DNA of 21,335 nucleotides from a virus. Positions within the stretch are counted from its first letter, which is position 1; each line of letters begins with the position of its first letter. The stretch is from IMG/VR virus record IMGVR_UViG_3300017752_000210, positions 1 through 21,335 of that record. One strand, 5' to 3'. The position numbers were made by a program, and so were the translations under genes. Below the pieces are notes generated by a model. It was not told the origin of the DNA, did no database searches, and saw nothing but the letters and a program-made list of their open reading frames with translations. Shown piece by piece: positions 2,482 through 16,626 of this stretch.

Positions 2482-2934
2482 TTATCCGTCTAGTCTATAG
2501 ACTGTCGTTAATTGTACCTCAGCTAATCCATAAGGAATTGCTAATCCTTCATCTGGACTAATACTATCTATTGTTATATCTAGTATACCCTTATCAGGAT
2601 TGTCTCCTAGTGAATAGATAACGTGTTCTATATCTTGAACTAGATCATCTATGAGGCTTTGAGAATTATCTTCCCCAAATACGTATGCTCTTATGGTAAC
2701 GTCTAATGTTGCTACCGTCAAACTTTTAGATTCAAAATCTCTAATTTCGGTCCCAGCACTTACGTATAGCGCTGGAAAGTCGTTGACTTCATCTAAAAAC
2801 TTTACTCTTCGGTACACATTATTGAACAAGTTCTGTGTATATGTGTACCCACTGTTAAACCCAGAGACTGCGCCATCAATTTCTTTAAGCTGTGTAACTA
2901 AAAAATCTATTATCTCTGTACGTCTAGATGCCAT
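2482..2934 (-). CDS. Tail terminator / head-tail completion protein (copy 1)
   Basis: This 150-residue protein opens MASRRTEIIDFLVTQL. It contains NNVYRRVKFLDEVNDFPALYV, then a strand-helix core (TLDVTIRAYVFGEDNSQSL) and ends IPYGLAEVQLTTVYRLDG. The pattern fits the small tail-completion proteins that cap the tail tube and join it to the neck. Position just before the major tail protein supports this. Its ATG overlaps the stop of the preceding gene (TAATG), indicating translational coupling. A clear paralogue lies at 18728-19153, which shares the N-terminal RRT-II, NNVYR, NDFPA, the YVF/YVYDGD core and the PYG-A--Q---YRL C-terminus. Having two copies in one phage is unusual. Confidence 0.72.
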   Translation of the reverse strand: MASRRTEIIDFLVTQLKEIDGAVSGFNSGYTYTQNLFNNVYRRVKFLDEVNDFPALYVSAGTEIRDFESKSLTVATLDVTIRAYVFGEDNSQSLIDDLVQDIEHVIYSLGDNPDKGILDITIDSISPDEGLAIPYGLAEVQLTTVYRLDG

Positions 2935-4328
2935 TATCTTCTTATAAACCTGTAATACTCGCCTACAATTTGTTGCACTGCTGGTCGAAGTCCCTGAGTT
3001 TCAATTAGTTTACTTGGTGCTCTGCGCTCACTTTCAAAAACATTATAAATTGGATCGTAAGTATATTCAACAAATTTCTTTTTCTGATTGATTCTAGTAA
3101 CTGTAAAAGACTCAGCAAAACGACCTGTTCTTTCAGTTAAAATCTCGCTAACAGGCGGAGGAGGTCCCCCAGGCTGTCCTTTTGGCATTTTAGCTCTAAA
3201 TAATTTTCTAGCTAAAGCCTCAATTTGTTGCGTACTGATCACTTGTTGTATAGGATCTTTAAGTTGTCTCTTTTTAGGTCTTTTAGTTTTAGAAATAACA
3301 GCACCACTTTTAGTAGATCCTATATTGAAGTCTAATTCTAAAGGGTTACGTTCAAACTCTTGTGCAATAACAAGTATCTCTGCAAAAGCATTAATAAATC
3401 CATACTTAGTTTTAGCACCATTTCTTCGTAGAACCTTAGCGCCTTGACCTGTTACGTAAAACTTTAAAATATTTTCTAAGAATTTATCTTCCGCTTGGTT
3501 AACAACTTGTCGCGTAACATTAATCATAGAGTCTTTGATTAATTTTCCACCAGCAGCACTGGTTCTAAGAGCTATTGAACCGCCCGAAGCCCCACCCGTA
3601 AATTCAAGTGTTGTAAATTTTCTTCTATTAGCTGCGTTTCTAAGATTAAATTTCTTTGCTAATCCAGGTACAGCAGAGACTTGAAGTTTTCCATCTACAT
3701 AAGAAAAAAGCAAGTAATTCTGCATTTTTTGTTCAAACTGAGTTATTAGTCTTTCTCTATAAGCTTTTTGTGCAGGAGCTTCAAACCATTTAAAAAGTAT
3801 TTTTTGATCGTATAAAGATGCCTTTATTGTACCTTTAGAACTTACTTTTACATTAGCACTTTGTCTAATACGACTAATCTCTTGGGTGAATTCACCTCGG
3901 TCACCTCTACCTAACTGAGTAAAAGTAGTAGTACCGCCTGCTGATAATTTTTGCTTTACCTCTAAAGTACGTTTGCTTGACTCTGTTGCGGTTTCATCGT
4001 AGGTAAACTGATTAGCAACACCAACACCAAATAAAGTAACTAGATCATCGTAATCTATCTCTACGTCAGGAGATGATTCTGGTGAAGCAAATCTACCTAA
4101 ATTTTTAGGCTCACCAAAAAATCCTCTAATAGCAGGATCAAACTGTTTTCCTCTTGCGCCACCAGACAGAAAGTCAGAAAATAGTTGAAGATCTAACATC
4201 TTGGCCCTATCCTGTGGGGTCGTCTTAAATTGTTTGTTTTTTACTAATTTTACAGCTTCACCAAATGCAGATTTTAATCCTTTTCCATCAGGAATACCAT
4301 CAAAAATGATGTCTACATTTAATTTCAC
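2934..4328 (-). CDS. Putative neck/head-tail joining protein, unrecognised
   Basis: This 464-residue basic protein starts with GTG at 4328, overlapping the TGA of the connector gene in a GTGA arrangement. AGGAT lies upstream. It opens MKLNVDIIFDGIPDGKGLKS and has Lys/Arg-rich segments (KTKRPKKRQLKD) followed by a Pro/Gly-rich patch (KGQPGGPPPP). It ends with an aromatic/basic tail, EYYRFIRR. Its position between the head-tail connector and the tail terminator is where HK97 gp10-like neck proteins are encoded, but it is far longer than those. I recognise no domain. It could be a neck protein with added domains or a structural protein of a new type. Confidence 0.5.
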   Translation of the reverse strand: MKLNVDIIFDGIPDGKGLKSAFGEAVKLVKNKQFKTTPQDRAKMLDLQLFSDFLSGGARGKQFDPAIRGFFGEPKNLGRFASPESSPDVEIDYDDLVTLFGVGVANQFTYDETATESSKRTLEVKQKLSAGGTTTFTQLGRGDRGEFTQEISRIRQSANVKVSSKGTIKASLYDQKILFKWFEAPAQKAYRERLITQFEQKMQNYLLFSYVDGKLQVSAVPGLAKKFNLRNAANRRKFTTLEFTGGASGGSIALRTSAAGGKLIKDSMINVTRQVVNQAEDKFLENILKFYVTGQGAKVLRRNGAKTKYGFINAFAEILVIAQEFERNPLELDFNIGSTKSGAVISKTKRPKKRQLKDPIQQVISTQQIEALARKLFRAKMPKGQPGGPPPPVSEILTERTGRFAESFTVTRINQKKKFVEYTYDPIYNVFESERRAPSKLIETQGLRPAVQQIVGEYYRFIRR

Positions 4329-5665
4329 GAAATGATCCTATATAAATCTAGAATACGACGAATATGAGGTGGGAAGTTGCCTGCTAAAGGATAAGATTCT
4401 CCACGCTCTCCTTCAAATGAAAAGCCACGTTTTTCTTGATCTTGTTTGTACAACAATTTAATCATATCAAGTGTTGCAAGCTGAATATCTTGGGGAATAT
4501 CAGCAGACTCATAGCCTGCACGATATTCTACTCTCACACCAGAAGGAAACGGAGAGAAACCAGGAGGACCTGAAAGAGTTAATGATGGATAACTATTACG
4601 AACTGTTGGGAAAGAACCTCTTACACCGACTGCTCCTACATCACGAGTTACTTCTCCCATATCACGAGAAAAGTTATACTCATTTGTTGCGTTATGAACA
4701 TCTATAGCTTCAGTAGCGTCGTTCTTGCCATCAAAGTGAACTAAGAAAATAGTTTCTCCATCGGGTCTGAATCTTTTTGTTGGAGGAGTAAAGTCAGTAT
4801 CACCATATCTAGCTTTATCTGATACTCTAATTTCATCCATATATCCTTTAAATGTAGTGCCTACCTCAACATTACTTGTAAATGTTAAATTTGCCTCACT
4901 AAAAGAAGCATTAGCAATCACATTACCATTATAGTGTAAGTATAATGTTTCTTCTGTTAAATCACGAGATACAGCTACGTGCGCCCACCTACGTTTAGCA
5001 AATTGCTGAGTCTCAATAGAAGTATTGGCTCCTTCAATTACAGTTGCTGTTCCTGAAACATTTGCTTCATATGCTAAACCTTTTTGATTCGCTAATCTTA
5101 ATTGCATATAATTTGAAGCATCTGTGTTAATTGAGAATAGTACGTTATCTTGTAGAGTCGCTTCATCTACACGAATAAACATCTCAATGGTAAAATCACC
5201 CTCTTCAAATTTTAAGTCTGAAGATACAGTACTACCTAAGAGGTAGTCACTAGTGTTAAGCTCTAGAGAAGATTTTCCAAATTTTTTAATTCTTGTGTTA
5301 ATGTGAGCGTCATTTTTAAAAGATAGTGTTGTTGCATTAGTCTCTTGAGTAGTTACAGGCCTACCTATAGTAGTTGGATCAGCTAAAATTACATCTTCTG
5401 TGCCATTGAATTCAGAAACTTGATATACATTTGAAAGAGGTAGTCTCGATACCATGACAGAAGTTTTTCCTCCATCAAACACTTCAACATAATCATTAGC
5501 CAACATTTCTTGCCCAATATAATGCTCAACTACTCCTGTAGCATAGTTAATGATATTAGCAAGTCTAGCGTCTTGACTAGTAGACGAAATACTTAGATAA
5601 TCTTTAACTTGTGCTAAAGTAACAAAAGCATATTTTCCTAAATTTTCTTCTAAACGATCTACCAT
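4325..5665 (-). CDS. Head-tail connector with inserted LamG-like domain
   Basis: This is 446 residues, several times the roughly 100 residues usual for gp6-like connectors. Residues 1-105 begin like a connector: FVTLAQVKDYLSISSTS, then DARLANIINYATGVVEHYIG. The end (about 375-446) returns to that fold: VRVEYRAGYE...IPQDIQLATLDMIKLLYKQ. In between, about residues 108-313, lies a concanavalin-like/LamG jelly roll: KKFGKSSLELN, then GDFTIEMFIRV, RRWAHVAVSRD, YNGNVIANASF, GYMDEIRVSDKARYG and FTPPTKRF. A segment TIFLVHFDGKN follows, resembling a LamG opening strand. The connector halves would dock on the portal ring while the LamG domain projects outward, possibly binding glycans. The gene follows the capsid gene and overlaps the next gene by 4 bases. 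Confidence 0.75.
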   Translation of the reverse strand: MVDRLEENLGKYAFVTLAQVKDYLSISSTSQDARLANIINYATGVVEHYIGQEMLANDYVEVFDGGKTSVMVSRLPLSNVYQVSEFNGTEDVILADPTTIGRPVTTQETNATTLSFKNDAHINTRIKKFGKSSLELNTSDYLLGSTVSSDLKFEEGDFTIEMFIRVDEATLQDNVLFSINTDASNYMQLRLANQKGLAYEANVSGTATVIEGANTSIETQQFAKRRWAHVAVSRDLTEETLYLHYNGNVIANASFSEANLTFTSNVEVGTTFKGYMDEIRVSDKARYGDTDFTPPTKRFRPDGETIFLVHFDGKNDATEAIDVHNATNEYNFSRDMGEVTRDVGAVGVRGSFPTVRNSYPSLTLSGPPGFSPFPSGVRVEYRAGYESADIPQDIQLATLDMIKLLYKQDQEKRGFSFEGERGESYPLAGNFPPHIRRILDLYRIIS

Positions 5666-5763: not shown

Positions 5764-7161
5764 TTAGCCAGCTTCAATTGTAACAGCGTAGCTGTACTTA
5801 GTAGCGTCAAGAGCTGATGCTGAGTTAGTCGTAAGAGCTTTAAAGTCAATACGAGTGCTCATGTACATTGCAGTGACCTGCTGACGTGGTTCGTACTCGC
5901 TCTCAATCTCGATACCGCGACGTTCTGCAATCATAAAGCCAGGCTTATAGCAGAGAACTCCGAGGTCACGACCGGTTCCACCAACGTTATCTAAGAACTC
6001 AGTGATTGCAATTGGGATACCGTAAACGGCGCCAACTGAACCTGTGAGGTAGGTAGCGTTTGGACCAAACTTGTCAACTGTCTGGAAATCAGATGTTGTA
6101 ACAAGGTTGTTGTAACCTTCGATTGATGTCAAGTACACAAGGTCGTTACCAAGCTGAAGGCCATACTTGCCAAGCTTAGTGCGGGCTGCAGCGATATCTG
6201 ACGGATCAGCTTTATCGTTTGCAGAACCTGTGTCCACAGTCAGGCCTGCACCTACGTCGTCAGTCAGGTTAGTAATACCTTCGATGACAGACGCGTAACC
6301 AGTACCGGCTGTAATTGCATTTGTTGGTGCTGCTGTAAATCCAGTCAACGCACCAGTTCCACGTAGAATTGCTTTATCGATAGCACGGGCTAAACGACGT
6401 GTAGCAGCTGCACGCAAGAAGTCGAGCAAAGGAAGAACTGTATCTTCTTCTTCGTCTTTTGCGAGGTGTGTGGTAGCCATGAACTTATGTGGAGTAAAGT
6501 CCACTGAAGCAATGGTGTTCTGGTTGCTGGTTGGTACGCGAGTTGCGTCAGCAATACCTGTAGCAAATGTGCCAGAAGCAAATTGTGCTACGTCACCGTC
6601 TGTATCTTCGTCAGCTACTGGTACGCGGAATGTTTTCGCGTCAACAGCCATACGATTGAACATTGGAGCAACAACTAGCTGCTGTTCCATTTCGGTGTAA
6701 ATGTTTTGTGAGAAGTTGCTCAAGAACTGATCAACAGAGGTAACAGCTTTCATCTTGGCACCGACTTTGGTGTCAAAAATGTCACGCTTGTTAAGCAATT
6801 TCGCAACAAGAACGGCGTTAGCCATATCTTTTTCAGAATACTGAGCTGCATTGCGGCCCTGCTCCTGGAAGTGCATTTTTGAGCGCTGCAGTGCAGCAAT
6901 CTCATCTTGGTATTTGTTCATCTGAGCTTTAAGTTCTGCAACTTGCTCTGATTCACGCGGTGTGTAAGCGGTATCGCTATCACCTTTAACCAGCATTTGC
7001 TGGTCAGCAGCGTCTGCTTCCTTCACGATAGCGTTTCCGGCCTCTTGGACCAGATCGGCAACTGCAGGCTCAGACACTGTAGCACGTGGTGCTTCTTTTT
7101 TGATCTCTTCAGCTGGTACAGCTTTAGTAAGATCGATTGTATCTACGACTTGATCAGCCAT
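5764..7161 (-). CDS. Major capsid protein from an internal in-frame start (nested gene)
   Basis: Codon 447 of the fused frame is an ATG at 7161-7159. It has a perfect AAGGAG Shine-Dalgarno at 7176-7171 and 9-base spacing. Initiation there gives a 465-residue protein, MADQVVDTIDLTKAVPAEE..., whose size and layout fit an HK97-type capsid precursor: an N-terminal delta domain with a coiled coil at about 70-100, then the shell domain. This would let the phage make hundreds of capsid subunits per protease-scaffold-capsid fusion. Whether the mature N-terminus is cut by the fused protease is unknown; the mature shell probably begins after the coiled coil. The internal Shine-Dalgarno and start are seen; their use is inferred. 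Confidence 0.65.
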   Translation of the reverse strand: MADQVVDTIDLTKAVPAEEIKKEAPRATVSEPAVADLVQEAGNAIVKEADAADQQMLVKGDSDTAYTPRESEQVAELKAQMNKYQDEIAALQRSKMHFQEQGRNAAQYSEKDMANAVLVAKLLNKRDIFDTKVGAKMKAVTSVDQFLSNFSQNIYTEMEQQLVVAPMFNRMAVDAKTFRVPVADEDTDGDVAQFASGTFATGIADATRVPTSNQNTIASVDFTPHKFMATTHLAKDEEEDTVLPLLDFLRAAATRRLARAIDKAILRGTGALTGFTAAPTNAITAGTGYASVIEGITNLTDDVGAGLTVDTGSANDKADPSDIAAARTKLGKYGLQLGNDLVYLTSIEGYNNLVTTSDFQTVDKFGPNATYLTGSVGAVYGIPIAITEFLDNVGGTGRDLGVLCYKPGFMIAERRGIEIESEYEPRQQVTAMYMSTRIDFKALTTNSASALDATKYSYAVTIEAG

Positions 7162-8499
7162 TTCGTCTTTCTCCTTATCAGAATTTTCGTGAAGCTCTTT
7201 AGTAGGGCTCTCGCTTATAACCGCGTCTTCACTTGTAGATTTTTCGACTTGTGAATGTTCTTCTGTTTTCACATTAACAACATTATCACAGTCTTCGCCA
7301 TTAGCGTCAACCTCTAAAAATTTAAAGATTGGGTTTTGCTCTGTAGCGACGTTAGTGACTTTAAACATTTTTTCTTGATAGTTTACAAGATCACCATGTT
7401 GAAGTTTGCTTGCATCTTCGGAAAGCAAGTTTGTGAACGGGATAGATGCCATAGGGTCTTTAATTTCAAACTCCTCTTCATCATCCTTTTCCATACCAGT
7501 GACTACTTCCTCAGTTTCTGCTTTGACCTCAACTTCTTCAGTATCAGCTTTATCTTCAGTAGCTTCCTCAATTTCAGCTGTTTCTTCAACAACTTCTTCA
7601 GAAACTTCTTCTGATTTAACTTCAACATCAGTATCCGTTACTTCAATCATGTCAGCTTCTTCAGCTTTGATTTCAGTAACTTCTTCTTCTTTTGAGTTAC
7701 TCATTGCTTCCTCCTCGGTTGGAGACATCGGACGTTCGTTAATAACTTCGCCCTCCTCCGTGCTATGAATGGGAACACCTGCCATTGTGATGTCATGAGA
7801 ATGCCCTTCGGCCTCTAATATAACACCAGCAACAATTTTATGAGCGTGGTTTTGCATATGAGATGCGTAGGTTGTTACCCCATTACCACTATCATCCATT
7901 TCAACAGTATGATAGTGACCATCGCTCATGTCGGTGATTCCTGCTTTTATTTTACGCATCTTTTTGATTTCTTCGGTATCAGCCTCTTTTAAAGATTTTT
8001 TGAACTCGCTAAATTCTTCATCTGAATCAAAAGATTTTCTAATAGAGAAAAGAGAATCCTGATTACAAGGAACAGAAACTACAGAAATTTCTAGTAGTTC
8101 TACATCAGTAATCATCATAGAATCGTCTTCACGATTATATTTTCCATCTTTTACTCTAAATCCTACAGAAAAGCTTTTTAACGCGCCATCTTTAATAAGA
8201 GTTTGAACTCCGTGAGTTTTTTCAGCTGCTTCAGAAACAGCACATTCAACAAAAATACCTTTTTTATCAACTCGAATATTATCTACACGACCGATTGGGC
8301 AATCATGCTTATGTTGATAGAGAAGAACTGGATTACGCCGATAATTTTCAACGCCTTTAGCCCACGCTTCAGCAGTAACAATATCGCCAGAGCGATCTTT
8401 TGCAGTAGTATTGGCATAACCAGCAATCTTTAAAGTATTAGAACCTTTTTTAAGTGCTTTAGTTTCGAAGGAACTGTTTAAATAAAGAGTTTTATTCAT
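5764..8499 (-). CDS. Fused prohead protease - scaffold - HK97-type major capsid protein
   Basis: This is one 911-codon frame. Residues 1-155 are an HK97-family (U35) prohead protease: GYANTTAKDRSGDIV, YQHKHD with the likely catalytic His63 or His65, KSFSVGF with the likely Ser111, and the acidic LLEISVVSVP strand (Glu137). Residues 185-245 are a His-rich segment (GHYHTVEM, NHAHKIVAG, GHSHDITM). Residues 262-345 are very acidic (Glu/Asp/Val/Thr), as in scaffolding domains. Residues 355-410 look like a small beta domain. From 447 onward is the capsid protein: a delta-domain-like coiled coil (about 515-547), then shell sequence (DFTPHKFMATTHLAKDEEE, RRLARAIDKAIL, IPIAITEF). The ATG overlaps the portal stop and has GAGGA upstream. 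In most relatives the protease and capsid are separate genes; here an internal start probably supplies capsid alone. Confidence 0.85.
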   Translation of the reverse strand: MNKTLYLNSSFETKALKKGSNTLKIAGYANTTAKDRSGDIVTAEAWAKGVENYRRNPVLLYQHKHDCPIGRVDNIRVDKKGIFVECAVSEAAEKTHGVQTLIKDGALKSFSVGFRVKDGKYNREDDSMMITDVELLEISVVSVPCNQDSLFSIRKSFDSDEEFSEFKKSLKEADTEEIKKMRKIKAGITDMSDGHYHTVEMDDSGNGVTTYASHMQNHAHKIVAGVILEAEGHSHDITMAGVPIHSTEEGEVINERPMSPTEEEAMSNSKEEEVTEIKAEEADMIEVTDTDVEVKSEEVSEEVVEETAEIEEATEDKADTEEVEVKAETEEVVTGMEKDDEEEFEIKDPMASIPFTNLLSEDASKLQHGDLVNYQEKMFKVTNVATEQNPIFKFLEVDANGEDCDNVVNVKTEEHSQVEKSTSEDAVISESPTKELHENSDKEKDEMADQVVDTIDLTKAVPAEEIKKEAPRATVSEPAVADLVQEAGNAIVKEADAADQQMLVKGDSDTAYTPRESEQVAELKAQMNKYQDEIAALQRSKMHFQEQGRNAAQYSEKDMANAVLVAKLLNKRDIFDTKVGAKMKAVTSVDQFLSNFSQNIYTEMEQQLVVAPMFNRMAVDAKTFRVPVADEDTDGDVAQFASGTFATGIADATRVPTSNQNTIASVDFTPHKFMATTHLAKDEEEDTVLPLLDFLRAAATRRLARAIDKAILRGTGALTGFTAAPTNAITAGTGYASVIEGITNLTDDVGAGLTVDTGSANDKADPSDIAAARTKLGKYGLQLGNDLVYLTSIEGYNNLVTTSDFQTVDKFGPNATYLTGSVGAVYGIPIAITEFLDNVGGTGRDLGVLCYKPGFMIAERRGIEIESEYEPRQQVTAMYMSTRIDFKALTTNSASALDATKYSYAVTIEAG
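7702..7715 (-). promoter_or_regulatory. Possible internal ribosome binding site for a scaffold-capsid form
   Basis: An AGGAGG at 7715-7710 lies 5 bases before an in-frame ATG (7704-7702) at codon 266 of the fused frame, giving MSNSKEEEVTE. Initiation here would yield a scaffold-capsid product of 646 residues without the protease. The Shine-Dalgarno falls within a Glu-rich stretch (GAGGAGGAA codons), so it may be a by-product of acidic coding. Confidence 0.35.
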
Positions 8500-9751
8500 T
8501 AGTTGTATCCTCTAAATTATTAGATTCCTCTTGAGAGGGTCTTCCACCTTGGGTTGCGTCAGTTGCGCTACCCGTAATGTTCTGTGGTATTCTTATGGTA
8601 TCATTATTTTCCATTTTTGGAAATCTTAATCCTTCACGAGCTTCATTTGGGGTGATAATTCCTGTGTTTACCAGAGTTGAATAATAAACAGCTTGAGTCC
8701 TGTTATCAGGCTGAAGAGCGGGAACACTAAGTCTATCTGGAGTGATAGTCACTCCTCCATTAAAGAAGTGAGAAAATGCTGAACAGAATTGGTTTAAGAT
8801 AGGCAAAATAGTGTGTAAGTAAAATAGCTTTTGATTTGCATCAATATTAGCATTATTACCAGATTTTAAAAGAACATAAGGCACGCCTAGTGCCTTTGCC
8901 ATATCTTGTTGAATTCTTTCGATAGAGTTTTCAAAGTCAAGTTGATCAAAAGATTTAGTAGAAAACTCATCAATCTTTAATCCACCATCTAAGATTGCAG
9001 GGTTTCTAGCGCCATCAAAAATAGTAGTATAAGAAGCTCTCCAAGATTCTAAAAGTCTTTCTTTAACTCTTTTTGAAAGAATATTATCAGTAGTTAAAAC
9101 AAAACCTGGAAGTGCGTTATTTTTAAAGAATTGACGTTGGAACTTAATCATATAATAGTATAGTTCCATCAAGCTCAAAATTGGTTTAAGTTTAGATGTG
9201 CCTCTAAAAATTGATAGCTCATTTTCAGCCATGACATGAATGATTTCGTAAGGCTCAAAACGAATTGATTCAGCTTTAGACGTTTGTTTTCCGCGACCAA
9301 AACCATAAAAATCATTAGCTTGTTGGTTATGAACTAAGTAATTATAATGAGAAACAAAAGCACGATCATCAGGAACTACTTCAACGTCATTAGCGGGTAA
9401 TAAATAGAGAGATTCGCCGTCATAATAGAAAAAGGCGTTACCATCTAAATGAAAATCTAAAAAGGCCCTTCTAAATAACCTAGCACGGTCTTCAAAAGGA
9501 TTAGGTTTAATGTTCATTAGTTTATTTACTTTTTTAGCAGAACCACCGTTAATGTTAAGAGGAATTTCTGTCAGTGCATTGATTACCATCTCTACAGAGC
9601 GATGAACAACTTCAATCTCTCTATACGCCTGTTCATAATCTACAATAGTTTCGGGAGACGCAAAAGGTTCAAGAGAAGCTATAGAAGGCTGTGCGGGATT
9701 AAGCTTTTCTGCTACCCACTCTCTGAAACCGCGTCTATCATTATCTGCCAT
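8492..9751 (-). CDS. Portal protein (HK97 family)
   Basis: This is 419 residues, the usual length for HK97-type portals. Hallmarks include YREIEVVHRSVEMVINALTEIPL near the N-terminus and RRAFLDFHLDGNAFFYYDG. Further on are a wing/stem segment, FRGTSKLKPILSLMELYYYMIKFQ, and ERIQQDMAKALGVPYVLL followed by the C-terminal helices. It forms the dodecameric ring through which DNA enters and to which the connector binds. It precedes the protease-capsid fusion and overlaps it by 8 bases, the standard order. The start ATG has AAGGA upstream and overlaps the HNH gene end by 11 bases. The C-terminus is polar and Ser/Asn/Glu-rich. Confidence 0.92.
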   Translation of the reverse strand: MADNDRRGFREWVAEKLNPAQPSIASLEPFASPETIVDYEQAYREIEVVHRSVEMVINALTEIPLNINGGSAKKVNKLMNIKPNPFEDRARLFRRAFLDFHLDGNAFFYYDGESLYLLPANDVEVVPDDRAFVSHYNYLVHNQQANDFYGFGRGKQTSKAESIRFEPYEIIHVMAENELSIFRGTSKLKPILSLMELYYYMIKFQRQFFKNNALPGFVLTTDNILSKRVKERLLESWRASYTTIFDGARNPAILDGGLKIDEFSTKSFDQLDFENSIERIQQDMAKALGVPYVLLKSGNNANIDANQKLFYLHTILPILNQFCSAFSHFFNGGVTITPDRLSVPALQPDNRTQAVYYSTLVNTGIITPNEAREGLRFPKMENNDTIRIPQNITGSATDATQGGRPSQEESNNLEDTTNE

Positions 9752-10118
9752 GTTTTTCCTTTTGAATATCTAACCAATTTTTAATTTTAAGAGTTAAATG
9801 ATTAGAGTATCGTTGCCCATAAATTGTGTGTAATCTCTGATGATGAGATTTACATAATGTAAATAAGTTATGATGATCTAAACTTTCCTTACAGTCTACT
9901 GCAAATTTCTCACGAAGGGAAGTAATTTTTTCAACAGTATCAATTTCATTAATCTTATTACGAGTACACCACTCATTGAATAACTGACTTACAGAAAAAA
10001 GGTGATGAAGTTCTAAGTTCTGAACAGAACCACATATATAACACTCGTCACGCAGTTTATAATCTTTCTTAATATAATCTCTTATGTATTTGATTGGAAA
10101 TCTTTTTAATTCAGACAT
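9741..10118 (-). CDS. HNH endonuclease next to terminase and portal
   Basis: This protein of about 125 residues has a zinc-binding HNH core. It includes CYIC (Cys26, Cys29), LELHHLF with the first His pair (38-39), HHNLFTLC with Asn84 and Cys89, and the final SHHQRLH (His92-93). HNH proteins encoded beside the large terminase and portal often help cut DNA during packaging in cos phages, though a free-standing homing nuclease is also possible. A TTG further upstream (10136) opens the same frame. I prefer the ATG at 10118 because it has GGGGAG upstream and the core sits normally from there. It overlaps the end of the glycosyltransferase gene by 13 bases and the portal start by 11, so it is embedded in the operon. 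Confidence 0.8.
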   Translation of the reverse strand: MSELKRFPIKYIRDYIKKDYKLRDECYICGSVQNLELHHLFSVSQLFNEWCTRNKINEIDTVEKITSLREKFAVDCKESLDHHNLFTLCKSHHQRLHTIYGQRYSNHLTLKIKNWLDIQKEKHGR

Positions 10119-10729
10119 TCTTGAAGCACTCCCCAACGTTTAGTATAATGGTCTGGGTGCTTATTTAGCCCAACATCTCCTTCTCCTAGATTTAAGACAT
10201 TACCAGAAACAGTAGAAAGATGTGTATGATTATTAAGTTTTTTTATGAGATAACTTATAAGAATATCATCTCCTCTTGTTAAATTAGTATTTGCTAATAT
10301 GTCAGACTTAACACTATCAAGACAAGATTGTTTAACCATAATTACGGATCCTACTAAGAAATCAACTTGTGCAGCAGTACACCAAACATCTTTAAGTTGT
10401 TTATAGTGTTTTGCTTTAGATACTCCCTGCTTACCATAGACACCTACCATATCTTTTTGCATATCATACATCTTTTTTATTAATAATGGATGAGGCAAAA
10501 GGTCATCGTCTAAAATTAATTTATATTCTTCAGGATAGTCAAAACACCTTAACCAACGTTCAATACAATACTTATTTTTTGTATTATTTATCACATCAAC
10601 TTTATCATGGCTAAAAGAGTCGTTTGGGTTATTATTAATAACAGTAATCCTAAAATTTTTACATAAGGAGTCACAAATTGCTTTTACGTTATTTGGTCTT
10701 TTATAGTTTAATAGTATAATTCTAAGCAT
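10106..10729 (-). CDS. Glycosyltransferase-like protein (GT-A type)
   Basis: This 207-residue protein opens MLRIILLNYKRPNNVKAIC. The opening resembles GT2-like transferases: a beta strand, then a nucleotide-binding loop with Arg/Pro/Asn. YKLILDDDLLPHPLLIKKM carries a DDD (74-76) at the place of the metal/UDP-sugar DxD motif. Later, TRGDDILISYLIKK (Asp154-155) matches the acidic ED-type motif. It would transfer a sugar, perhaps to a virion protein, to the host surface or to modified DNA; the acceptor cannot be told. The gene overlaps the TerL end by 8 bases and the HNH start by 13. It is an accessory gene wedged into the packaging module. Confidence 0.65.
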   Translation of the reverse strand: MLRIILLNYKRPNNVKAICDSLCKNFRITVINNNPNDSFSHDKVDVINNTKNKYCIERWLRCFDYPEEYKLILDDDLLPHPLLIKKMYDMQKDMVGVYGKQGVSKAKHYKQLKDVWCTAAQVDFLVGSVIMVKQSCLDSVKSDILANTNLTRGDDILISYLIKKLNNHTHLSTVSGNVLNLGEGDVGLNKHPDHYTKRWGVLQECLN

Positions 10730-12277: not shown

Positions 12278-13339
12278 TTAAATTTTAATTATGTAATTCA
12301 CTACTTCTGTTGGTAGTGTAGTATTTACTGAGAAATTATTTACAGTTAAAGAAGGGACTGTAAGTGCAGGAATAGATAGTCCTGGAACAGATAAGGCTGG
12401 GATAGATAATCCAGGAACTGAATGAGTATGGTTATTAACTGTTAGTGAAGGTATTCCGTGTGTGTGATTGTTAACTGTTAAAGATGGAACGGTCAAAGCA
12501 GGAATAGATAAACCTGGGACAGATAGAGCAGGAACAGATAAAGCAGGAATAGATAATCCAGGAACTGAATGAGTATGGTTTGCTTGGTTTACCGCTGTTA
12601 CAAGACCAACCTGTGTAACGTCTTTAGTGCCTGTAGCAAGAGTTTGGTTGACTGTATAAGTAGTTAAGGTTAAATCTCCAGCACCCTCAGCACCAGTGTT
12701 ACCAGCACCAGTAGTACCAGTACCTGTATTTGATGTGCCTGTGTTTGCTGTACCTGTAGTACCAGTGCCTGTATTTGAGGCAGCAGTTGTAGAGGTAGCA
12801 TTAGCTGTGTCTGAAGCAGCAGTTGTAGCTGTAGAGTTTCCAGAAGTTCCGGCACCAGTAGTACCAGTGCCTGTATTGTCTGTACCTGTAGTACCAGTAC
12901 CGGTGTTTGAAGCAGCTGTTGTAACACCTGATTTAGTAGCTGAAGCTAAGACACTGCTTGCAGCAGCAGAGCCTGTAGTAGTGCCAAGAGTGCCGTTGTT
13001 AGCTCCTTTGCCTAGAGGAACTTTATCTCTTAGATCAGGAACATTAAAGGTTGAAGAACCGTCACCAACACCATAACCAGTACCAATTACAGCAAATAAA
13101 CGGGCATAAGTTGAGCGAGAGACAGCAGAATCATCACAAAGAAGCCATCCAGTAGGAGCACTAGCAGCACCATAACCAACAATTGTACCTGAAGGAATGA
13201 TTTCGGCACCGCCTCCAGTAGAACCGTCATGAATTCTTATATTATTTGTATCTGTATCTAGAGAAATCTCTCCAACAAGTCCTGTATAAGAGTTGTTTTG
13301 AGCAGTCGTTCCTCGTCTAAATTGTAGCTGTGTAGCCAT
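12278..13339 (-). CDS. Tail-collar fibre protein with low-complexity and PxL solenoid repeats
   Basis: This is 353 residues. Residues 1-40 form an N-terminal fibre head (LQFRRGTTAQN, GEISLDTDTNNIRIHDGST). Residues 48-115 are a Tail Collar domain (PSGTIVGYGAASAPTGWLLC, YARLFAVIGTGYG, STFNVPDLRDKVPLG). Residues 143-222 are Thr/Gly/Asn/Ala low complexity. From 258 to about 333 is a five-residue repeat (S/T-V/I-P-A/G/S-L) punctuated by three NHTH motifs (His255/257, 292/294, 304/306). HxH motifs in trimeric fibres such as T4 gp12 bind metal, so a metal-stabilised trimeric needle is plausible. The repeats favour recombination and length change. AAGGAG precedes the start. It probably acts in receptor recognition. 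Confidence 0.82.
   Translation of the reverse strand: MATQLQFRRGTTAQNNSYTGLVGEISLDTDTNNIRIHDGSTGGGAEIIPSGTIVGYGAASAPTGWLLCDDSAVSRSTYARLFAVIGTGYGVGDGSSTFNVPDLRDKVPLGKGANNGTLGTTTGSAAASSVLASATKSGVTTAASNTGTGTTGTDNTGTGTTGAGTSGNSTATTAASDTANATSTTAASNTGTGTTGTANTGTSNTGTGTTGAGNTGAEGAGDLTLTTYTVNQTLATGTKDVTQVGLVTAVNQANHTHSVPGLSIPALSVPALSVPGLSIPALTVPSLTVNNHTHGIPSLTVNNHTHSVPGLSIPALSVPGLSIPALTVPSLTVNNFSVNTTLPTEVVNYIIKI
12341..12568 (-). repeat. 15-bp periodic repeats encoding the PxL solenoid
   Basis: The DNA repeats roughly every 15 bases, encoding (S/T)(V/I)P(A/G/S)L units in the collar fibre. Two 32-bp stretches are identical, at 12402-12433 and 12549-12580, 147 bp apart. This indicates recent duplication inside the gene. 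Confidence 0.85.
12674..12913 (-). repeat. Low-complexity Thr/Gly/Asn/Ala coding repeats
   Basis: The minus strand encodes repeated SNTGTGTTG(T/A) units interspersed with TTAAS blocks, forming residues 143-222 of the collar fibre. The plus strand carries a long shadow ORF only because the repeats lack stops. The region is probably variable between relatives. Confidence 0.75.
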
Positions 13340-15990: not shown

Positions 15991-16626
15991 TTAATTAGTC
16001 TTGTTTATAAAACTATATATACGTTCTGCGTACTGTATTTGTGCTTCGTGCCCAGGATGCTTATTATCTAATGCAAGACCTAAGTGTTTAAAACTTCTCA
16101 TAGTGAAGGGTAAGAATTTTACCTTGTTCCATTCCCAAGAATCAATTATATCTGCTTGCATAGGAAGTAAATGATGATTTTTTATGCCTAGGCTGTCGAG
16201 ATAAAGTTTTGCATAATTGGCTCTAGTATATAAGTCATAACACCCGTCGTAAGTATCATACAAAAATCTATAATATGCTTTTGACATTTTTTCTTCAACC
16301 CAAGCACCTATAGACGTAAAACTAGCTTCTTTACCTTGTTCTACAAATCCATCATTGTGAAAAATTGTGTATCGATTTGTATATGTCCACATAATAATTA
16401 CAAGATCATTTTTACAAAAGTCAAAATCTTGTATGCGTTTTAAAATAAGTTTATTACTACTTCCTGACATACTAAGATTAACACATTCTAATCCCAGCTT
16501 GTTAGCAACCAACTGAGGCCAAGCATAATGGCTAGGCTCATCTCCCATGCATTTAAGTTTAACGTCAAAACAGTCTTTAAGACCATTCCCAAATGTAATA
16601 CTACATCCAAAGGTTATTAATCTCAT
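15991..16626 (-). CDS. SGNH/GDSL-family hydrolase (esterase-like)
   Basis: This 211-residue protein starts MRLITFGCSITFGNGL. The block I motif FGCS places the nucleophile at Ser9. A block II-like NLSMSGSSN and a block III-like TYTN follow, and LDNKHPGHEAQ near the end gives the Asp187-x-x-His190 catalytic pair. All the elements of an SGNH hydrolase are therefore present. Such enzymes remove acyl or acetyl groups from polysaccharides. Phages use them to de-acetylate capsule or LPS, or to modify their own surface sugars. No signal peptide or membrane segment is seen, so it is cytoplasmic or virion-associated. It sits next to a sulfotransferase-like gene and a second SGNH-like gene. No good Shine-Dalgarno is visible. 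Confidence 0.75.
   Translation of the reverse strand: MRLITFGCSITFGNGLKDCFDVKLKCMGDEPSHYAWPQLVANKLGLECVNLSMSGSSNKLILKRIQDFDFCKNDLVIIMWTYTNRYTIFHNDGFVEQGKEASFTSIGAWVEEKMSKAYYRFLYDTYDGCYDLYTRANYAKLYLDSLGIKNHHLLPMQADIIDSWEWNKVKFLPFTMRSFKHLGLALDNKHPGHEAQIQYAERIYSFINKTN

Follow-up and report, generated by a model that had tools for sequence, protein, structure and literature searches.

Head-tail connectors are regarded as conserved plumbing, and the locus described here raises the question of how one of them came to hold a whole lectin-fold domain in an outer loop, and what such a domain might do at the neck of a virion. The window, by which we mean the whole 21.3 kb virus record that was analysed (21,335 nucleotides), has a T5-like gene order: terminase, portal, protease/capsid, head completion protein (HCP), tail-completion-like gene, terminator, major tail protein and chaperone. 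The original prediction had placed a LamG-like jelly roll at 4727-5344 (minus strand) within the head-tail connector, and these positions are residues 108-313 of a single 446-residue open-reading frame, which we divide as follows.

4325-5665, minus strand: HCP/adaptor (T5 p144-like) with an inserted LamG domain, 446 amino acids (Pfam, PHROG, profile alignment, T5-like synteny)
5495-5665, minus strand: connector helical domain, N-terminal half, residues 1-57 (Phage_connect_1 at 16-54; helices 17-23 and 32-57)
5351-5494, minus strand: connector attachment (beta) domain, first half, residues ~58-105 (profile alignment, L084 HCP up to residue 78)
4691-5335, minus strand: inserted LamG/ConA-like jelly roll, residues ~111-325, ~215 residues (Laminin_G_3, AlphaFold2, Foldseek, cassette exchange)
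4691-4759, minus strand: strand segment at the C-terminal end of LamG, residues 303-325 (ETIFLVHFDG...; model strands 305-310 and 319-322)
4511-4690, minus strand: connector attachment domain, second half, residues ~326-385 (profile alignment, L084 HCP from residue 79; Pfam HCP)
4328-4510, minus strand: connector helical domain, C-terminal half, residues 386-446 (Pfam HCP; helix 392-410)

Connector and LamG were both recognised on this one chain, bearing out the claim that a LamG-type domain is inserted in a head-tail connector. Pfam HCP (PF24163) matches the frame with its best stretch at residues 313-443 (E=4.9e-12), Phage_connect_1 matches residues 16-54 (E=4.5e-6) and Laminin_G_3 (PF13385) matches residues 149-286 (E=6.6e-14, 52.8 bits, the curated cut-off being 27.6 bits), all three exceeding their curated cut-offs, and PHROG 442, head-tail adaptor, matches with E=5.7e-24. 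The profile match extends over both helical halves and the gene lies between the major capsid protein and p143/terminator genes, the marks of the T5-type HCP/adaptor family. The middle part does match a LamG profile, and the three motifs read from it are present: GDFTIEMFIRV at 156-166, RRWAHVAVSRD at 225-235 and GYMDEIRVSDKARYG at 274-288. When the connector-only columns were aligned by profile (hhalign) to 67 relatives lacking the insert, the probability was 99.75 (E=2.5e-26), and the insertion point fell between residues 78 and 79 in the HCP of Escherichia phage HildyBeyeler (Tequintavirus), which is 170 residues long. We conclude that the minus-strand frame 4325-5665 encodes a T5-type head completion/adaptor protein carrying an inserted LamG/ConA-like domain.

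An AlphaFold2 monomer model, for which 27 family members served as input, shows a beta-sandwich at residues 111-325 (block means mostly 76-93), low-confidence linkers on both sides of it (94-108 and 327-384, below 50) and connector helices at 17-23, 32-57 and 392-410. In this prediction of the 446-residue protein alone the jelly roll is separable from the connector and the two do not form one continuous fold, and the insert combines a LamG profile above the curated cut-off with the jelly-roll beta sandwich of a LamG/ConA-like domain. Two boundaries had to be redrawn: the location at 108-313 was roughly right, but the C-terminal strands 305-310 and 319-322 are part of the LamG domain, so that its end moves to ~325 and its extent becomes about 111-325; and the connector is indeed split, but its N-terminal helices occupy only ~17-57 and not the whole of 1-105, residues ~58-105 and 326-385 being the two halves of a beta attachment domain which the insert divides. 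The connector part was modelled poorly as a monomer, at low AlphaFold2 confidence, and its identity therefore rests on profiles and synteny; residues 386-446 are the most conserved part of the family, with mean column identity up to 0.97. Foldseek returned 372 matches in the PDB at E<=0.001, to ConA-like lectin folds, including pentraxin, PAPP-A, AbnA domain 4 and clostridial lectin-like domains, which have the fold in common and nothing more. The clostridial proteins, although many, were rejected as meaningful relatives because they reflect the ConA-like lectin fold alone.

Three IMG/VR scans with the family of the 446-residue protein recovered relatives with identities as low as 47% (to L079), and each of the 152 loci recognised as matches had the LamG insert (93 distinct complete proteins), a count that includes some contigs taken twice with different flanks. 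Across these loci connector, LamG and connector form one open frame with no stops, and as 152 related loci keep the same layout in this way, the architecture is far beyond chance. Connectors without the insert, sought as a check on the original prediction, do exist: a T5-like portal-profile scan found 67 more distant T5-like relatives, five isolates included, which have at the same locus HCPs of 170-243 amino acids without LamG. Portals at insert-bearing loci are at least 75% identical to that of the window, whilst those at insert-less loci are at most 41% identical, so the insert has become fixed in one large clade, made up of uncultured T5-like phages. Gene order around the connector is conserved, the capsid gene adjoining the HCP gene in 126 of the 136 loci that contain a capsid gene and the terminator lying one gene downstream of it in 111 of 111.

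No isolate among 50,697 phage records has LamG within a connector, the matches there covering the LamG part and coming mostly from cyanophages. A profile search of genome contigs with the connector-LamG family returned no relative, and hence no host or prophage, and we found no description of LamG at the phage neck or in cyanophage structural proteins in open-access papers. The best structural match is A0A218MK94, a 'putative structural protein' of an uncultured virus deposited without a described function, which equals the window protein in length (446 amino acids), is 42% identical to it over the full length and, on this comparison of sequences, is likely a member of the connector-LamG family. 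DSL-LC04 was the sole phage match spanning residues 15-335 among the matches listed, and was rejected as a connector relative since it is a multi-LamG protein matched through its LamG repeats. Also rejected, despite its Foldseek rank, was the 'gp14 neck protein' of metaG-MbCM1 (NC_019443 80956-88185) as a precedent for a neck location: the product has 2,409 amino acids, lies in a baseplate/fibre cluster and belongs to the same family as another giant structural protein, and the label is probably wrong.

Our main new result is that the LamG part is exchanged between viruses as a recombination cassette. The two connector parts have median pairwise identities of 76% and 73%, LamG one of 53%. The DNA of loci L024 and L064 is mostly 95-100% identical in the flanks (~98% in most windows) over 1.5 kb upstream and ~1.1 kb downstream, yet 40-73% identical across residues 119-317, whilst L056 and L059 exhibit the reverse pattern, with LamG at 91-100% and the rest of the gene at about 65-86%. 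Among the 238 close pairs, defined by connector identity of at least 92%, LamG identity was 60% or less in 48. The LamG type changes four times on the connector tree: that of L059, L064, L119 and L122 is a clade in the LamG tree and is found at four places on the connector tree. Forcing these four together on the connector tree was rejected (AU p=2e-4), as was the connector pair L064/L097 on the LamG tree (AU p=7e-42), p-values that are optimistic because the tested groups were picked after the trees were seen. In close pairs pN/pS is 0.06 in LamG vs 0.01-0.02 in the connector; LamG is under purifying selection, is less constrained than the connector and diverges faster. Strands and the rest of the domain vary about equally (mean identity 0.58 and 0.56), and the idea that the variation sits in loops is unsupported.

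The nearest sequence relatives of the insert, at ~30-34% identity, are LamG domains of marine cyanophages (Kyanoviridae), which have the same strand order but are part of giant baseplate wedge/structural proteins and not of a connector. An LHFDG-type strand lies C-terminal of LamG in the insert and in cyanophage QB2, and N-terminal in other LamG domains, such as that of a DUF2460 tail protein from the same phage group. From the strand order, compared by eye, and the QB2 match, the insert is probably circularly permuted; in a test of the permutation by HMM against the DUF2460 LamG, the match was too weak. Of ten large contigs from the group, four encode a second LamG-bearing protein, the tested example being the DUF2460 tail protein, and one of the four has three additional LamG open-reading frames. 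L242, L244, L245 and L246 encode, ~10 kb downstream of HCP, a tail protein of ~535 residues whose C-terminal part is DUF2460 and which also holds a LamG of canonical order, and L243 (G004:27300-30500) has three consecutive LamG open-reading frames of 232-251 amino acids, apparently a local tandem duplication.

What the domain might do depends on its surroundings, for which four further genes are needed.

8492-9751, minus strand: portal protein, the adaptor's partner (Phage_portal E=5.9e-48)
5764-8499, minus strand: fused prohead protease and major capsid protein (Peptidase_S78 and Phage_capsid within one open-reading frame)
2934-4328, minus strand: tail-completion-like protein at the T5 p143 position, with a hypervariable N-terminal part (identity, RTGRF region, AlphaFold2)
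2482-2934, minus strand: tail terminator (Pfam Phage_tail_terminator_7 E=5.8e-21)

The portal is 33-37% identical to the portals of T5-like isolates. The S78 protease-capsid fusion has 911 amino acids and a long acidic middle and occurs in full length in 87 related loci, whilst the examined T5-like isolates encode protease and capsid protein in separate genes. The neighbour at 2934-4328 has a median pairwise identity of 16%, vs 71% for the terminator and 80% for the portal, and its C-terminal RTGRF region alone is clearly common to T5-like proteins. AlphaFold2 models the N-terminal 330 residues with confidence (pLDDT 84.6 for the whole protein), and a fold search with this model gave no match among solved structures at E<=0.001. 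This gene is exchanged as a cassette of its own, possibly a more striking case than the LamG insert. Upstream of the large terminase gene, 12278-13339 (minus strand) encodes a fibre-like protein with a Phage collar domain and an Mtd N-terminal domain. Two frames adjoining structural genes have weak matches below the curated cut-offs, 10106-10729 (minus strand) to a family 2 glycosyltransferase (E=0.02) and 15991-16626 (minus strand) to GDSL lipase/DUF6071 (E=0.003/0.0004), and their products are possible glycan-modifying accessories.

The anatomy and evolution of the LamG-bearing connector are real and well supported; its function we infer. T5 p144 and the DT57C HCP are dodecamers (PMC11313276, PMC10713586), so twelve LamG copies per ring would be expected here, and in the DT57C 12-mer domain DII (44-111) is a small beta-barrel on the portal whilst the DI hairpin points to the lumen (PMC10713586). 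As the insertion lies in the outer attachment domain, a T5 layout would put LamG outside the ring, away from the DNA channel. The 446-residue protein would then be a dodecameric adaptor with LamG in a loop of this outer domain, the helical part would dock the portal to the tail terminator and line the DNA channel, and the twelve LamG domains would form an outward collar round the neck, directly under the capsid. Such a ring would most likely be an auxiliary adhesin of low affinity, putatively for surface glycans or another variable host ligand, that makes a first reversible contact, and LamG exchange would shift surface specificity with the connector staying fixed; LamG would be exchangeable as a cassette because binding is modular and not required for virion integrity. 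The exchange fits a ligand varying between hosts. LamG-like domains can also bind proteins or serve structure alone, and we recognised no conserved binding-site signature in the LamG family, the invariant residues resembling those of the fold.

On balance we lean, by a modest amount, towards a swappable LamG collar on a dodecameric adaptor that acts as an auxiliary host-surface binder. We put forward more tentatively, and rather doubt, a wider reading in which the connector ring doubles as a receptor-binding collar, so that a DNA-gating adaptor with twelve swappable lectin domains would decide, or help to decide, which cells are bound and, together with its hypervariable neighbour, would make a diversification hot spot within a conserved head-tail module.

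If the LamG ring were instead a structural clamp contacting capsid or portal, its fixation throughout the clade would be readily understood, and in the R4C phage an accessory Ig-like domain at the adaptor periphery does touch the capsid, the authors doubting a role in adsorption (PMC10276861). However, capsid and portal are conserved (median identity 70% and 80%) whereas LamG (53%) is swapped across backgrounds, which argues against this, as a domain fitted to a conserved capsid should not exchange freely; T5-like relatives moreover manage without LamG, and we consider a clamp unlikely. Variation might also track a partner if the LamG ring were a docking platform for another virion protein, for instance neck fibres, the hypervariable product of 2934-4328 or the collar fibre encoded at 12278-13339. 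The ring collars of T4, phiRSL1 and XM1 bear neck fibres (PMC11313276), the neighbouring gene is hypervariable and a Collar/Mtd_N protein is encoded nearby. Yet there is little covariation between LamG type and neighbour type (Spearman 0.20, 2346 pairs), L024 and L064 differ in LamG whilst their neighbour is 90-100% identical, and T5 p143, the neighbour's positional counterpart, was placed at the tail tip and not the neck (PMC11784142), making docking a distinctly improbable explanation.

Exchange and faster divergence would suit any variable exposed surface, including a shield without a ligand whose replacement lets the virion escape a host or competitor factor that recognises it. No such virion-recognising factor is known for this system and ConA-like folds are usually binders, so we hold a shield to be less probable still than docking. 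The data are those of sequence alone, which is the one point in favour of an annotation artefact, in which two genes would have been joined into one, or some unrelated frame taken for a neck feature; given the single stop-free frame in 152 loci, the conserved gene order, the presence of both connector halves and the purifying selection, an artefact is scarcely credible.

The exchange of LamG between otherwise near-identical connector genes suggests that a changeable surface faces outward at the phage neck, and not at the tail tip alone. If LamG binds host glycans, the tail tip would not be the only determinant of adsorption, and predicting host range from tail fibres by themselves would overlook part of it. 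Naturally occurring swap pairs, with 98% identical flanks and different LamG domains, are ready material for testing neck domains.

The window protein resembles T5 p144 and the DT57C HCP (PF24163, PHROG 442) in gene position and in its helical and attachment domains, and presumably forms the same 12-mer ring, but the T5-like isolates examined have an HCP of 170-193 amino acids with no insert, compared with 446 amino acids and a LamG in the attachment domain here. The closest adaptor precedent is that of roseophage R4C, with an accessory beta domain on a dodecameric adaptor; this domain differs in being N-terminal, Ig-like, capsid-contacting and read as structural, and the available part of the account does not mention exchange (PMC10276861). 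Binding modules carried on the neck are already known: 936 lactococcal phages have CBMs on the neck as well as on Dit and the tail tube, and for two of these, those of the neck included, binding to host cells was shown (PMC6669499), and neck passage proteins are a recognised site of domain shuffling (PMC10684548). Like the 936 NPS, in which neck modules are shuffled over a conserved base (PMC6669499, PMC10684548), LamG is an exchangeable module on a conserved base, its exchange being seen here and its binding predicted, and the occurrence of LamG on the connector, the DUF2460 tail protein and further open-reading frames in some phages resembles the spread of CBMs in 936 phages. The 936 NPS is, however, a separate collar protein with a BppU-like base and a C-terminal CBM, missing in about a third of phages, whereas the module of the window has a LamG fold and is built into the connector ring itself; as its carrier is the connector and not a separate protein with a BppU-like collar domain, we do not class it as a 936-type NPS. 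New here are the location of LamG inside the connector and its exchange as a cassette.
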